Positions 1 to 5,895 of a stretch of DNA of 6,165 nucleotides are shown one piece after another. The DNA lies in the NCBI GenBank assembly GCA_030837265.1, contig JAUPKV010000103.1, forward strand, positions 1 through 6,165, given 5' to 3'. The notes beneath the pieces were generated by a model. It had not been told where the DNA came from. It was given only the letters and a program-made list of their open reading frames with translations, and made no database searches. The number at the start of each line of letters is the position of its first letter. The stretch's first letter is position 1. The stretch comes from Methanobacteriota archaeon. GTDB taxonomy: Archaea; Halobacteriota; Methanosarcinia; Methanosarcinales; Methanosarcinaceae. The position numbers and the translations under genes were made by a program.

Positions 1-10
1 AGGCGATACG

Positions 11-106
11 ATGCTAAAAAAGGAACTAGGAGCCCTATTCCTCAGAAACGGACCTTATTTTAACAACCGTTCAGCTTCGGGAAAAATATACACAAAAGAT
101 AACTAA
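11..106 (+). pseudogene. Signal-peptide relic, copy 1 (frameshifted, no body)
   Basis: The ATG at 11 begins a 31-codon frame ending at TAA 104-106. The first eleven residues, MLKKELGALFL, match the intact signal peptides of the two full genes (MLKRQLGTLFL, MIKKQLGTLFL). One extra base in the stretch after codon 11 shifts the frame. In the shifted frame the ancestral LILTTV segment is still legible in the DNA at 53-70 (CTTATTTTAACAACCGTT). The ribosome binding site is weakened to AGGCGAT (1-7). No mature domain follows before copy 2. I read this as a dead 5' end of a secreted-protein gene; a functional 31-residue peptide is possible but less likely. Confidence 0.75.
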
Positions 107-154
107 AGTTGTGAGTTTTCTCAAATTCTAAAAAACTCGCCCGAAGGTGATGCG

Positions 155-235
155 ATACTGAAGAGATTGCCAGGATCCCTATTCCTGACAACAAGCACTC
201 TTTTAACAGTAGCATTGGGTTTAGAAAAAAATTAA
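155..235 (+). pseudogene. Signal-peptide relic, copy 2 (start codon lost)
   Basis: The position equivalent to the start codon is ATA (155-157) although a good ribosome binding site, AAGGTGAT (145-152), remains upstream. Reading on in frame gives ILKRLPGSLFLTTSTLL and then TVALGLEKN to TAA at 233-235, still shaped like a signal peptide with a basic start, a hydrophobic core and ALG. No mature domain follows; the leader of copy 3 begins soon after. It is B-type, most like copy 4 (1230). The ATG inside the ribosome binding region (150-152) opens only a three-codon frame. Confidence 0.75.
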
Positions 236-280
236 CCTTCCTTCGAATTTGAGTTTACTCTAATCCTAAAATCCAACCCA

Positions 281-288
281 AAGGTGAT
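281..288 (+). promoter_or_regulatory. Ribosome binding site of the beta-helix gene
   Basis: AAGGTGAT, complementary to the 3' end of archaeal 16S rRNA (anti-SD ATCACCT), sits 3 bases before the ATG at 292. The identical element precedes the ATG at 1366. It fixes the start of both genes and is part of the repeated module. Confidence 0.8.
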
Positions 289-291
289 ACG

Positions 292-1170
292 ATGCTAAAA
301 AGACAGCTAGGGACCCTATTCCTGGCAACATGCCTTATTTTAACTACCGTACCTGCTGTACTGGGCGGAGAAAATAAACAAATTATAAATATTGCCGGAG
401 ATGGAAGTGGAGACGTCAACTGCGATGGAAAAGATGATCATGCCCAGATTAACCAGGCGCTTGATTATGCAGCAAGCCAGCCTGGCACGATCGTCCATCT
501 TAAAGGACCATTTACTTATGAAATCGGCGATTCTCTCCGAATCGGCAGTAACACAGTCCTTGAAGGAGATTCGGGAGCAAAAATTAAGCTTGCCCCAGGA
601 TTAAATGAATGGGGAGGACGTGGAAGCAGTATTGCAAATGAAAAAGCTATGCTCATGATTAAAGGCAATTCTGCATCCGATGTTACAATAAGAAACTTAA
701 CAGTTGATGGGAGCCAGAGCGATTATTATCCTCACATAACTCTCGGCTGGTCTATTTTCAACATGGCAACACTCATAGGCGTTGATGGGTTAACAATACA
801 GGATGTTACATTCCAGAACGGATGTAATGATGCCATGCTTATTTCAAAATCCAGCAACGTAATGATAGATTCAGTAACAGTAAACAAGTGCGGACATGAT
901 GGAGTGTATGCCTATAATGTCAAAGACATTACAGTCAAGAATTGTACCTTCATTAACCGGACTAATTCGTCCACTCGATTCGATATTGTCACTGATGGGG
1001 TGTTTGCAAACAATGATTGTAGCACATCCGGTGGCGGATATGCTGGTCTGGAACTTGAAAATGCTGTTACTAACATAGAAGTTTACGGCAACAATTTCCA
1101 TGACTTAGCTGGTCCTGACATAGCACACGTCCATACTAAAGAAACTAATGTAAACATCCACGATAACTAA
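292..1170 (+). CDS. Secreted right-handed parallel beta-helix (pectate-lyase-like) protein
   Basis: A 292-residue exported protein. Residues 1-26 form a Sec signal peptide: K3-R4, a hydrophobic core, then PAVLGG, with cleavage probably near G25/G26. Residues 31-100 look like the N-terminal cap of the pectate-lyase/polygalacturonase superfamily: AGDGSGD, CDGKDDHAQINQAL, a PGTIVHLKG strand, SNTVLEGD. From residue 127 on there are regular beta-helix rungs (DVTIRNLTVDG, GLTIQDVTFQNG, NVMIDSVTVNKCG, DITVKNCTFINR, NIEVYGNNFHDL). Such folds commonly bind or cleave acidic polysaccharides, so action on extracellular or cell-wall polysaccharide is a reasonable inference; no catalytic residue could be identified. 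The frame stops at NVNIHDN, in the middle of what looks like another rung and without a capping domain, so the C-terminus may be truncated. Its 5' end is a copy of the repeated module. The start is set by AAGGTGAT at 281-288. Confidence 0.85.
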   Translation: MLKRQLGTLFLATCLILTTVPAVLGGENKQIINIAGDGSGDVNCDGKDDHAQINQALDYAASQPGTIVHLKGPFTYEIGDSLRIGSNTVLEGDSGAKIKLAPGLNEWGGRGSSIANEKAMLMIKGNSASDVTIRNLTVDGSQSDYYPHITLGWSIFNMATLIGVDGLTIQDVTFQNGCNDAMLISKSSNVMIDSVTVNKCGHDGVYAYNVKDITVKNCTFINRTNSSTRFDIVTDGVFANNDCSTSGGGYAGLELENAVTNIEVYGNNFHDLAGPDIAHVHTKETNVNIHDN

Positions 1171-1226
1171 ATGTCCTGATTAAGTAGGAATCTCAAGAAG
1201 CACATAAAGCCACAACCCAAAGTGAT

Positions 1227-1298
1227 GTGGAGCTGAAAGGATTGACAGGATCCCTATTCCTGATATCAGTCGATCTTAGCAAAACATCGCTTTGGTGA
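1227..1298 (+). pseudogene. Signal-peptide relic, copy 4 (start and RBS damaged)
   Basis: The codon aligned with the ATG of the intact copies is GAG (1230-1232), and the ribosome binding site has decayed from AAGGTGAT to AAAGTGAT (1219-1226). A GTG one codon earlier (1227) could in theory start a 23-residue frame, VELKGLTGSLFLISVD and onward, to TGA 1296-1298, but the hydrophobic core is cut short by an Asp and no mature domain follows. B-type, closest to copy 2. It begins only about 60 bases after the stop of the beta-helix gene. Confidence 0.72.
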
Positions 1299-1301
1299 TA
1301 A

Positions 1302-1340
1302 AACTTATAAGTTCCCTATAAATTTTATTTAAATCTAATC
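1302..1340 (+). promoter_or_regulatory. Candidate promoter/palindrome before the TIM-barrel gene
   Basis: Holds a perfect 12-bp palindrome AACTTATAAGTT (1302-1313) followed by the AT-rich stretch CTATAAATTTTATTTAAAT (1316-1334), which offers TATA-box candidates 35-60 bases before the ATG at 1366. A separate promoter for this gene would explain why the module carries leader as well as signal peptide. Which TATA is used, and whether the palindrome binds a regulator, cannot be told here. Confidence 0.4.
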
Positions 1341-1354
1341 CGAAATCCAACCCA

Positions 1355-1362
1355 AAGGTGAT
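1355..1362 (+). promoter_or_regulatory. Ribosome binding site of the TIM-barrel gene
   Basis: AAGGTGAT followed by TCA and the ATG at 1366. It lies in the same module position as the site before 292 and supports the chosen start. Confidence 0.8.
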
Positions 1363-1365
1363 TCA

Positions 1366-2193
1366 ATGATAAAAAAACAGCTAGGAACCCTATTCCTGGT
1401 AACATGCCTTATATTAACAACCGTACCTGCTGTACTGGGTGGCTCATCAATTAACAAAACCGAAGGAGCAAATTCTGACACCCAAAGAAGCACTGGAACT
1501 GAAAAAATGCCTTTAGAAGGTGCCTGGAATAATTGCGATTTCTCTAAACCTGCTGCACAATGGTCAGCCGATGCCAATAAATTTGGAGGTGAACATGGAA
1601 TTGTTGACCTCGTAGTTACTCAGGCACATGCAAATAAGCTCGCTTACGTGCCTTTTCCTTTCGAAAAGCAAGGATCTATCTACAGCTCTGACGAGACCGA
1701 CAAGGTAGAACCATACCTGGATACTTTCGAGAAAGATGGACGAAAGGTGATTCTCTCGATTCAGCCAAATGGGGCTGATGCTTCTGAATTGATGGATATT
1801 ATACTCTCAAGGTACGGACATCACAAAAATATAATTGGTATAAATGTTGACATGGAGTGGAAATTAACAGGAAATCCAAATCACCTCAGTGATAAAGAGC
1901 GAGATGTCTGGCTAGACAAGATCCATAGCTATAATCCGGAGTATAAACTTTTCCTGACCAATTTCAAGGATTATACTTACTTCCCTCATGATGCAAAGGA
2001 CCTTGTTATCTTATACGATGGCCAGGGATCTCAGAATGACATCCTTAAGGAATACGGGATACTTGCAAGCCATTTCTCATCGGTCGGATTATATACCGGA
2101 TACGATGAAGATACTCCACGAACAGCATCTAGCGACAGTATTGTGGCTGCAGCTCCGAATACTAAATACATTCTCCACTCAATTGATGATTAA
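1366..2193 (+). CDS. Secreted TIM-barrel, glycoside-hydrolase-like protein
   Basis: A 275-residue exported protein. Residues 1-26 (MIKKQLGTLFLVTCLILTTV, then PAVLGG) are the module signal peptide, nearly identical to that of the gene at 292. Residues 27-50 are a polar linker. The rest alternates hydrophobic strands and helices like a (beta/alpha)8 barrel: GIVDLVVTQAH (78-88), RKVILSIQPNG (126-136), KNIIGINVDMEWK (154-166), YKLFLTNF (193-200), DLVILYDGQG (212-221), SVGLYTGY (239-246), KYILHSIDD (267-275). The strand ending D162-M-E164-W is where GH18-like and related barrels place catalytic acids, and this segment with SYNPEYKLFL resembles archaeal and bacterial secreted barrel proteins I recall with a 'VDVEW' motif. 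Glycosidase activity is an inference. The protein ends after the last predicted strand and looks complete. It shares nothing with the beta-helix protein beyond the signal peptide. Confidence 0.8.
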   Translation: MIKKQLGTLFLVTCLILTTVPAVLGGSSINKTEGANSDTQRSTGTEKMPLEGAWNNCDFSKPAAQWSADANKFGGEHGIVDLVVTQAHANKLAYVPFPFEKQGSIYSSDETDKVEPYLDTFEKDGRKVILSIQPNGADASELMDIILSRYGHHKNIIGINVDMEWKLTGNPNHLSDKERDVWLDKIHSYNPEYKLFLTNFKDYTYFPHDAKDLVILYDGQGSQNDILKEYGILASHFSSVGLYTGYDEDTPRTASSDSIVAAAPNTKYILHSIDD

Positions 2194-2659: not shown

Positions 2660-3910
2660 ATGGGGCTTAATGGAGACGGAGATTATTTCATCAAGTTTGT
2701 GGATATTTCATTGGTAATTATTTTGTTCCTGGTTTCAGTAGACGCCGGAGATGCAAGGACTGTTTATGTGGAACCGGGAAATTCGATTCAAGGTTTCGTA
2801 AATAATTCTACTGTAGGGGATCTTATTGTCATTAAGCCTGGAGTTTATCAGGAAAATATTACTATCAACGTATCCGGAGTGAAGGTAATATCAGACCCTG
2901 GTAGTTCCGGCGTCGTGCTCATAAAGTCACCGGATGGGAATTCAAGTGTGTTTCAGATTGAAGCGGATAATGTAACTGTAAGCGGGTTTAATATAACAGG
3001 TTCAGGTGAAGAACCTGACAGGGCTACAGGGACACCGGAAGGAACTTCCTGCTATCCGGCAGGGATTTGCCTCAAACATGCAAATAACTGCACAATCGAG
3101 AAGAATAATATTTCCAAAAACCTGTACGGAATCTATCTGCAGGACTCCATGAACAATACTCTCTCGCAGAATATCTTTTCCGGAGACGGGATCTGGCTTG
3201 ATGAAGAATGTAGCCGAAACCTGTTATTCAATAATGTAATTGAGAATGGAAATATCATCCTGGGAGCACACTGCTGGAACGATATAATACTGCAGAATAA
3301 ACTTTCAAATGGTGATGGAATAAGCATTGCCTGCTGCGGTGGAGACAATCTTGTTTCCGGGAACTCAATCATTAATTGCAGTTCTGGAATTGATATTTAT
3401 GATGTCCAGGCAAAGACCGTTATTAGTGATAATCGGATTGAAGACTGCACTTACGGGATTGTCTTCGATTTTGTTTTAGGTTCCAGAGTATCTAATAACT
3501 CGATTTCTAATGCCAGCACCGGGATTTATTTCAGAGAAGAATGCCACAACAATAATCTTTACAATAATATAATTACTTCCAGCAAGTTGTCAGGTATCTA
3601 TTTACTGGACAATTCTGCCGATAACCTCATCTATAACAATTATTTTAATAACACGATAAACACAAGAATCGAAAACAGCAACAACAATTCCTGGAACATT
3701 ACGAAAAACAAGGGCACGAGTATTGTAAAGGGTCCATACCTCGGTGGAAACTTCTGGGCAAATCCTATAGGTGCAGGTTTTTCGCAAACTGCGGAGGACT
3801 TGAACTTAGATGGAATTAGCGACCTGCCCTACAGGGTTATAGGAAGTGATTTTGACTATTTCCCACTTGTCATGAATTCTTCCACCACCCTAAACAAACA
3901 CGAACTCTGA
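2660..3910 (+). CDS. NosD/CASH-type parallel beta-helix cell-surface protein
   Basis: A 416-residue exported protein. Residues 13-32 (hydrophobic core LVIILFLVSV, then AGDA) form a signal peptide. Residues 34-70 have the classic opening of NosD-like proteins: TVYVEPGNSIQGFVN, GDLIVIKPGVYQENITI. Residues 100-335 are a run of PbH1 beta-helix rungs with the recurring pattern N-N-x-I-S/xxGIYL (ENVTVSGFNITGS-like, NCTIEKNNISKNLYGIYLQD, NLIYNNYFNN). Residues 355-403 are the C-terminal segment common to Methanosarcina surface proteins: GGNFWANPIGAGFSQT, D-N-DGI-D-PY and a final DYFPLV. Many N-x-S/T sequons suggest N-glycosylation. NosD proper matures nitrous oxide reductase; no such enzyme is nearby and methanogens lack that role, so this is better seen as a surface or polysaccharide-binding protein. 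Six or more Cys lie in the helix, including C225-C226, which is unusual for an extracellular helix and may form disulfides. The last domain is present, so it looks full length. Confidence 0.85.
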   Translation: MGLNGDGDYFIKFVDISLVIILFLVSVDAGDARTVYVEPGNSIQGFVNNSTVGDLIVIKPGVYQENITINVSGVKVISDPGSSGVVLIKSPDGNSSVFQIEADNVTVSGFNITGSGEEPDRATGTPEGTSCYPAGICLKHANNCTIEKNNISKNLYGIYLQDSMNNTLSQNIFSGDGIWLDEECSRNLLFNNVIENGNIILGAHCWNDIILQNKLSNGDGISIACCGGDNLVSGNSIINCSSGIDIYDVQAKTVISDNRIEDCTYGIVFDFVLGSRVSNNSISNASTGIYFREECHNNNLYNNIITSSKLSGIYLLDNSADNLIYNNYFNNTINTRIENSNNNSWNITKNKGTSIVKGPYLGGNFWANPIGAGFSQTAEDLNLDGISDLPYRVIGSDFDYFPLVMNSSTTLNKHEL

Positions 3911-4348: not shown

Positions 4349-4730
4349 ATTAATTGCCGCTTTATCTATAATTCCTTTAAAAGATTAAACTGTAAAATCA
4401 CAGGGATTAACCGGGAACTGTGGGCGAAACATTTTCTCAGAAGTGAAGCTTCTTGATTTTGTCTTGATGTAAAACTAATTTAGTATTTTATGACTCTTTT
4501 TTTATTTAAACTTAAAGTTTATTATACTGTTGACTATGATAAAAATAAAATCGATATTCTATTATAAAAAAGGATTAAATTATCTTAAGCTGTAGAGTAA
4601 AATCTAAAGTAACTCTTAGTGTGATTAAAAGAACAGTATGCTTCTTTGGAATGGGAATGAGCTTGTCAATAGTTTCGAATCCCACTCGTGCTTTAAATAT
4701 TTAAGTTGTGTCAATAATAAAACTAAGTTA
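4349..4730. other. Gene-poor AT-rich spacer
   Basis: No convincing gene was found on either strand. The left end must hold the promoter of the minus-strand gene ending upstream at 4335; the TTTAAA-like sequence at 4376-4383 is a weak candidate. Notable elements are a near-perfect odd palindrome TAAACTT-A-AAGTTTA (4507-4521), the palindrome GAAGCTTC (4445-4452), and a tRNA-3'-end-like string TTCGAATCCCACTCGTGC (4674-4691) whose T-stem does not pair. On the minus strand GAGTGGGA and TCCCATTC can pair over 8 positions with one G-U around a loop of about 24 bases. Confidence 0.5.
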
Positions 4731-4769
4731 GAAATTATTAGTTATTATTAGTTATTATTAGTTATTATT
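4731..4769. repeat. 10-bp tandem repeat, nearly four copies
   Basis: The unit GTTATTATTA is repeated at 4741, 4751 and 4761, preceded by a variant GAAATTATTA at 4731 and ending in a last copy with one changed base. It abuts the stop codon of the minus-strand gene at 4772, so it would lie in that gene's 3' untranslated region. Slippage-prone microsatellite-like DNA is the simplest explanation. Confidence 0.85.
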
Positions 4770-5487: not shown

Positions 5488-5895
5488 ATGCAGATCAGAG
5501 TAGTTAGTTCCAGAGAGGAAATCTCTTCGCTCAACCCTGACGAACAAATAGTTCATGTGGCGTTTAGGCCTTCGAACAAAGATATTTTTGAATTGGTTGA
5601 AGCCTGCCCGAAAGTTGAAGTAATTCAGTTACCTCAGTCCTACAAACGTAAGATTTCACGGTCAGTTGAAATGTTTCTTGAGATGAAAAGAATCCAGTTT
5701 ATTGAGGGAGACATCTGGGGTCACAGGAAGGATATGGCAGAGTATTACAGCATGCCTTATTCGATGATGGAAAAAATAAAGAAAATGAAAGTCGAAGGAA
5801 AAGATGCTGAAACAATTGGGGAAAAGGTTTCAAAGGAAAGCACCATGAATCCAGAAATAGTTGCATACATGGTTAATAAAGGAATTCATAGCTGA
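5488..5895 (+). CDS. DUF1699 family protein
   Basis: A 135-residue soluble, cytoplasmic protein. I recognise it as DUF1699, a family of about this length known essentially from Methanosarcina and relatives and often present as several paralogues. Diagnostic segments are the N-terminal strand MQIRVVSSREEISSLNP, then IVHVAFRPSNKDIFELVEAC (21-40), PKVEVIQLPQSYKRKISRS (41-59), a helix EMFLEMKRI, and IEGDIWGHRKDMAEYY (72-87). The last third is lysine-rich and helical with MMEKIKKMKVEGKDAETIGEKV, which resembles a small helix-turn-helix-like segment; DNA binding is a guess. The family's function is not known to me. Promoter and ribosome binding site lie in the expected places. It is transcribed divergently from the Cys-rich membrane protein. 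Confidence 0.85.
   Translation: MQIRVVSSREEISSLNPDEQIVHVAFRPSNKDIFELVEACPKVEVIQLPQSYKRKISRSVEMFLEMKRIQFIEGDIWGHRKDMAEYYSMPYSMMEKIKKMKVEGKDAETIGEKVSKESTMNPEIVAYMVNKGIHS

Follow-up and report, generated by a model that had tools for sequence, protein, structure and literature searches.

The DNA studied here, referred to below as the window, is a 6,165-nucleotide (nt) stretch from an archaeon of the family Methanosarcinaceae (contig JAUPKV010000103.1). Its left part holds an array of a repeated unit, made of a ribosome binding site (RBS) and codons of a signal peptide, and two genes led by this module. The comparative results given below were drawn from the genomes of relatives. A profile search with nhmmer detected five copies of the unit, all on the + strand, at positions 1-72, 140-215, 270-358, 1213-1271 and 1344-1432 (E 3e-8 to 5e-28), in agreement with the five copies reported in an earlier note on this DNA. 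The period of the units is about 140 nt. Units 3 (270-358, E 5e-28) and 5 (1344-1432, E 2e-24) are of a gene-start class and carry the RBS AAGGTGAT at 281-288 and 1355-1362, respectively. Unit 3 opens the signal peptide (codons 1-26, 292-369) of open reading frame (ORF) 1, located on the + strand at 292-1170 and encoding a type B secreted beta-helix protein of 292 amino acids. Unit 5 opens the signal peptide (1366-1443) of ORF2, at 1366-2193 on the same strand, which encodes a type C secreted protein of 275 amino acids with a linker and, from about residue 51, a glycosidase-like body. The two gene-opening copies (269-368 and 1343-1442) are 91% identical across 100 nt, and the similarity stops at the Gly-Gly codons, as the earlier note had stated.

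The three other units are of an upstream class and also lie on the + strand. Unit 1 (1-106, nhmmer match 1-72) is clipped by the window edge. It shows an RBS-like AGGCGAT at 1-7 and an open short ORF at 11-106 (MLKKELGALFLRNGPYFNNRSASGKIYTKDN), the end of which contains a strand complementary to an RBS (CGTTCAGCTTCGGG, 68-81) whose partner in the minimum-energy fold is 140-154. This partner is the RBS region CCCGAAGGTGATGCG of unit 2 (140-215, nhmmer match), where ATA stands at 155-157 instead of a start codon. Unit 4 (1213-1271, E 3e-8), located between ORF1 and unit 5, is degenerate; in a tree of copies it sits on a long terminal branch and clusters with unit 2. Neither unit 2 nor unit 4 has an in-register start codon. 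The type C gene comes directly after the type B gene, with one decayed unit separating them, and in the tree the unit of the type C gene is nearest to that of the type B gene (91%).

With window positions 1300-1445 as a query, the module matched 28 of 30 Methanosarcina genomes at E ≤ 0.001, each species being represented by one genome. One exact pattern searched in viral contigs gave no match. We searched 65 regions from relatives, together with the window, using nhmmer. This gave 133 unit matches in 71 arrays, with 32 single, 17 double, 21 triple and 1 quadruple arrays, unit counts being approximate in arrays L058 and L106, which contain split matches. In the untranslated 22 nt before the start, gene-start copies differ by 4-6%, and those of the first upstream class by 21%. 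Genus-wide, silent divergence is 0.12-0.19 in codons 2-12 as compared to 0.35-0.49 in the bodies. Conservation of the untranslated leader and of silent positions, noticed earlier in the window, thus holds for the genus. Homogenisation as the sole cause of the conserved silent sites is unlikely, because class-specific silent differences persist across species. The signal-peptide codons at window positions 307-325 and 1381-1399 form a small hairpin, CTAGGAA CCCTA TTCCTGG, also present in the upstream class as CAGGAA ACCCTA TTCCTG, and this hairpin may account for part of the silent-site constraint.

The earlier note had proposed to list what follows the module in the genus. Among 64 downstream proteins (the read-through start of L063 was left out of the clustering), 60 form one beta-helix cluster, which includes some proteins of the disaggregatase type, and 4 a second one, type C and glycosidase-like. 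In a type A example, the long protein of L085, a pectate-lyase-like helix is accompanied by PF06848 (Disaggr_repeat, E 7e-88). In window ORF1, PF13229 (E 1e-11) was the sole Pfam domain match, and PF06848 was absent. No Pfam, NCBIfam or PDB sequence match was found for the type C body. Its predicted model is weak, with a mean predicted local distance difference test (pLDDT) score of 66, and resembles glycosidase TIM barrels at low template modelling (TM) score. Of the two different folds announced before, the beta-helix is therefore a Pfam assignment, while the TIM barrel is likely as judged from this weak model, which does not allow a family name to be given.

A type C query retrieved 59 proteins, 20 of which were examined by sequence. 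Six have the module signal peptide, nine an unrelated N-terminal anchor and one another signal peptide; three lack an N-terminus, and one is a beta-helix protein with the module. Relatives with other N-termini begin to align near residue 51 of ORF2, which sets the boundary of the body. In G003, G008 and G021, module-bearing and anchored type C genes occur within about 4 kb of each other. In G003, the two type C genes are separated by a gene with a putative glycosyltransferase-like stretch, as judged by reading its sequence. G001 has two type C genes, with no module match on that contig. In L063, no stop separates the upstream ORF from the type C gene in the same frame; the resulting reading frame (5899-6912, - strand) has 337 amino acids, and protein record P0011 has a similar N-terminal extension. 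In P0044, a type C domain is fused to a polysaccharide deacetylase/DUF2334 domain; this fusion hints at a role of type C proteins in an exopolysaccharide.

The upstream copies form a separate conserved class of short signal-peptide-like ORFs, genus-wide. In a tree of 112 copies (quick method, 97 columns, nine loci left out), one branch has all the upstream copies (56) on one side and all the gene-start copies (56) on the other, with 98 in the Shimodaira-Hasegawa-like approximate likelihood ratio test. In triple arrays before type A genes, upstream copies are short ORFs with their own RBS, exemplified by MLKRQIGTLFLTPCLILTTVSTVGDI and MLKIKQETLFLIPCLSLTAVCAFGKNRL in L070. In these type A upstream ORFs (uORFs), only one of 119 distinct substitutions breaks the start or the frame, as compared to 7.7 expected (1/58, P 0.105; 0/61, P 0.017). 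Decayed gene starts are thus an unlikely description of the upstream copies, since these lie on one side of the branch and the type A copies keep start and frame. For the same class, a view in which the array held recombination copies awaiting bodies was not supported: the copy tree places the upstream copies as an old, conserved part of the leader.

In relatives, a leader of about 400 nt lies upstream of the array, in a region corresponding to sequence beyond the left edge of the window. Using four queries and 52 loci, the region before the first unit was found to be common to up to 50 of 51 other loci over about 450 nt, and then to end sharply. An alignment of this leader (A3, 39 of 41 loci, L059 and L105 being left out) has an energy of -106 kcal/mol as compared to -55 ± 5 kcal/mol for 60 column shuffles. 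Over 13 helices and 39 loci, 91.3% of 2851 cells are paired; two-sided changes affect 25 pairs and 54 cells, while shuffles give 10.5 and 16.6, and 0 of 500 shuffles reach the observed level. When partners were slid, pairing fell to 29-40%, and helix 6 pairs in 94% of cells with the correct register. Because the structure was derived from the same sequences, the slide control is biased in its favour, and relatedness among loci is not taken into account in the shuffle control. A TATA-like box, TTTATA or TTATAA, precedes the first helix by no more than 50 nt in 42 of 47 loci, and in 38 it stands at a distance of 27-30 nt; in shuffled sequences, either motif is found anywhere in the 50 nt in 28% of cases. 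In some loci, one stem occurs in two hairpins separated by about 97 nt, and strands could be exchanged between them. In two loci, L068 (near 5265) and L091 (near 2931), the gene-start unit is directly adjoined by the middle of the leader, as if the 3′ part of the latter had been deleted.

The leader is tied to the module. A covariance model of 131 positions (R1) detected 58 places in 27 of the 30 genus genomes. Under the stricter filters used for the two large searches, it found none in the other 155 genomes of the order (27 of 185 positive in all), and in a draw of 392 phylum genomes it retrieved genus members only (14). At 57 of the 58 places, a module follows downstream on the same strand; the exception, on contig C34 of G020, leaves its contig 204 nt further on. 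Similarly, a leader element, ATTACG-loop-CGTAATATRRAATTTT, occurs in 27 of 30 genomes, with 60 places in total, all of them upstream of a module. A broad regulon can be set aside, because both this element and R1 are confined to these loci and to this genus, within those same searches. Rfam gave no match at E ≤ 1 in four loci and one chance-level match in the window, and no known riboswitch was matched. Overall, the leader combines a covariation-backed structure with a constant position before a set of genes, as structured cis-regulatory leaders do. Comparison of the loci gives the following order: a TATA-like box, the leader RNA (about 400 nt), from none to two upstream units, seldom more, each about 140 nt long, and finally the gene-opening unit. 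Every upstream unit carries an RBS of its own, joined before type A genes by a short ORF that looks like a signal peptide lacking a mature protein.

We then considered how the short ORFs relate to the unit that follows. Towards their ends, uORFs contain sequences of the kind CCGTATC.GCTTTGGG, which are complementary to CCCAAAGGTGATACG, the RBS region of the unit that follows. Tested against the canonical RBS, uORF ends give a duplex energy of -18.1 ± 2.2 kcal/mol (n=54), and the ends of gene signal peptides one of -8.7 ± 1.8 kcal/mol (n=67). In 49 of the 54 uORF-RBS pairs, which exclude L058, L106 and the window's own upstream units, the uORF stops at or past the paired strand, with a median of 53 nt between the stop and the start that follows. 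For pairing tests, identical units and those listed as belonging to degenerate or diverged loci were removed (130 to 117), and an identity filter reduced the 117 candidates to 90. The 47 non-first units pair better with their own partner than with swapped ones (-17.8 as compared to -17.3 ± 0.14, 0/2000), and so do 13 uORF2 leaders (P 0.0025). In the alignment of these 47 non-first units (A1), 8 cells are changed on both sides as compared to 2.8 in shuffles (1/500); in that of 41 first units (A2, two of 43 being left out), the values are 25 and 14.9 (0/500). In the window, unit 1 and unit 2 show TTCGGG/CCCGAA in place of TTTGGG/CCCAAA, a compensatory change. The corresponding fold (68-81 with 140-154) has an energy of -23.8 kcal/mol (z -2.8) and the duplex -20.7 kcal/mol. 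In the predicted folds, the next RBS is thus buried in a structure overlapping the upstream ORF, an arrangement typical of translational coupling. This complementarity between uORF ends and the following RBS suggests a translational-coupling relay.

Altogether, the comparison leads us to consider that the window probably carries the 3′ end of a genus-specific Methanosarcina regulatory leader, with a uORF relay placed before secreted enzymes. The leader RNA is well supported by comparison, whereas the relay is a computed prediction. In this model, the leader RNA would control how accessible the first RBS is. Through its end, each short ORF would pair with the RBS of the next unit and close it; a ribosome translating the short ORF would cross the anti-RBS strand and free that RBS. 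The signal would thereby be handed down the relay to the enzyme gene. Because the scanned type A example carries a disaggregatase-related domain, the device probably sets the timing at which cells loosen their polysaccharide coat. We also envisaged an extension in which it would sense export capacity during aggregate dispersal. The targeting machinery would hold the ribosome on ORFs that encode a bare signal peptide, keeping the anti-RBS strand open, while the leader RNA would decide when the relay starts. This extension is a long shot; if true, it would couple the synthesis of matrix enzymes both to spare secretion capacity and to a cue sensed by RNA.

Several results weigh against the relay model. 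The leader lies outside the window, and the ATTACG element is absent from it. Among 69 modules, 12 have no leader RNA upstream, and 32 of the 71 arrays have one unit only. Neither the gene leaders (n=33, P 0.17) nor the type A uORF1 leaders (P 0.63) pair significantly better with their own partner than with swapped ones. In A1, the proportion of cells that are paired does not exceed that of shuffles (86/500), and RNAalifold run with defaults gave 10 weak pairs without two-sided changes for A1 and none for A2. The folds preceding ORF1 and ORF2 are ordinary (z -1.1 and -0.35), while z ranges from -2.3 to -3.6 in three relatives. In first or single units, complementarity of the tail to the RBS is -8.7, against -8.2 for shuffled tails. 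A U-A/C-G swap is seen between classes of these units, yet tail-RBS pairing was discarded for them, their energy being that of shuffled tails.

Maintenance of the short ORFs is also uneven. Type B/C uORFs are not maintained, with 4 of 71 substitutions breaking them as compared to 4.7 expected. Frame-shifting gaps occur in 4 of 19 type A uORF1 rows; the middle of the ORF is shifted yet open in L076, L095 and L115, and the ORF of L056 is broken. Selection on the uORF peptides was not detected, the ratio of nonsynonymous to synonymous differences (pN/pS) being 1.21 (n=15, interval 0.73-2.29) and 0.80 (n=23, 0.50-1.14). For gene signal peptides the values are 0.62 (n=22, 0.34-1.05) and 0.42 (n=27, 0.27-0.63). 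The test is weak, because the interval of the type A gene signal peptides (0.34-1.05) likewise includes 1. We therefore do not retain the upstream ORFs as microproteins kept for their sequence, the uORF intervals including 1 in this weak test.

The earlier note had proposed that recombination swaps new bodies behind a fixed promoter-leader-export cassette, diversifying surface proteins. The cassette has sharp edges on both sides, type C bodies also occur with other N-termini, and the leader tree bears partly on the question. In this tree, three type C leaders fall in three places among type B leaders, one next to the type B leader of its own genome, and a single C clade is rejected at p 0.025 by the approximately unbiased test (17 rows), for a group named after the first tree had been seen. 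All 18 type A leaders form one clade (100/99), arguing for vertical inheritance. Between the type B and type C loci of G003 and of G008, identity is 0.91 in the RNA leader and 0.91 and 0.89 in the signal peptide, as compared to 0.50 and 0.46 in the upstream flank and 0.43 in the body. This within-genome excess is small, because identity between type C leader RNAs of different genomes already reaches 0.87-0.89. Moreover, the type C signal peptide and proximal leader do not follow the type B gene of the same genome. The ten nt before the RBS of the gene unit, like its leader, are class-specific, with an identity of 1.00 between type C units and 0.81 between C and B. For that reason it seems to be the distal RNA that was exchanged, and this exchange of the distal part of the cassette seems to take place between genes of one genome. 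The cassette proposal is therefore partly right, since type C leaders look exchanged with beta-helix leaders; sharp edges and unrelated bodies agree with it, but only two unrelated body families are found among the 64 proteins, and the upstream copies are a distinct old class. As a general account, we regard such swapping as unlikely.

Other explanations make less of the leader or of the array. One could imagine the upstream copies to be functionless leftovers of tandem duplication, only the promoter and signal peptide mattering. The undetected peptide selection, the decay of type B/C uORFs and the many genes with a single unit would fit this view. It is nevertheless quite unlikely in our opinion, because copies of the upstream class have persisted in different genomes and before different gene families, with the start and frame kept in type A, because their ends, unlike those of gene-start copies, are strongly complementary to the next RBS, and because uORFs differ on average by 0.16 whereas silent divergence in the same genes is 0.35. 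The conserved upstream region might also act as DNA, as a promoter with operators: a TATA-like box stands at its start, and it includes palindromes, ATTACG/CGTAAT and TCTAATTAGA among them, to which regulators could bind as dimers. Pair-preserving two-sided changes over 13 helices, a one-base insertion in a hairpin loop in L076, L095 and L115 and the location of the TATA-like box before, not after, the structured part make this improbable. Finally, an ordinary family of secreted proteins with a conserved signal peptide would agree with the homology of 60 of the 64 bodies. The earlier note had held that conservation at the protein level only, with diverged leaders and no sharp boundary, would make any cassette superfluous. 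On the contrary, conservation of the untranslated part and of the silent sites exceeds that of silent positions in the bodies, and the same leader is found before an unrelated body, so that such a family is very improbable. The reading retained is that of a regulatory leader RNA with a predicted relay.

Outside the array, the window contains a second beta-helix gene at 2660-3910 (NosD/PF05048, PF13229), with a different N-terminus of its own and no module unit. A DUF1699 protein (PF08004), of a family of unknown function, is encoded at 5488-5895, and a short intergenic tandem repeat, TTAGTTATTA, lies at 4728-4767.

The proposed device can be compared with known systems. In rpmI-rplT and in the MS2 coat-lysis pair, as described in PMC12548453, translation of the upstream ORF melts a structure over the next RBS, with a spacing of +52 nt in rpmI-rplT; the same would occur here, with a median of 53 nt. 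Unlike the coupled genes of that description, the Methanosarcina uORFs are in tandem, encode signal-peptide-like peptides only and follow a large, structured leader. Also in Methanosarcina, the operon of CO dehydrogenase/acetyl-CoA synthase is described as controlled post-transcriptionally through its 5′ leader (PMC5112694, citing Anderson 2009); by this description the control proposed here would be similar, but the genes downstream are different. In M. mazei, 10% of the unannotated small ORFs are placed in 5′ untranslated regions in the account of PMC11456600. The type A example, with its pectate-lyase-like helix and PF06848, resembles the M. mazei disaggregatase as presented in a review (PMC12369344), whereas many loci encode shorter relatives of about 300 amino acids, with a putative activity and a length that leaves no room for PF06848.

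With structured leader RNAs and riboswitches (Rfam 15), the leader shares covarying helices directly after a promoter box and a fixed gene set; it differs by the lack of an Rfam match in the scanned loci and by ending in uORFs. Few large covarying leaders are, to our knowledge, known in archaea. In vsa/vsp-type switching of Mycoplasma, a constant 5′ expression and export part precedes different bodies. The present loci resemble that arrangement, but neither an inversion system nor a stock of silent bodies was seen, and the constant part is a structured RNA leader. Within the open-licence literature searched, no title or abstract describing this leader was found.

The leader occurs in nearly every Methanosarcina genome searched, and its likely promoter box, fixed target genes and relay design are open to ordinary reporters. 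As read from these comparisons, a regulatory leader and an export signal are joined as one unit to an unrelated, glycosidase-like enzyme body, and the loci document such a joining. According to the same review (PMC12369344), the transitions between aggregates and single cells in these methanogens are an open question outside M. mazei. The leader would offer a handle on this movement of methanogens between aggregates and single cells.

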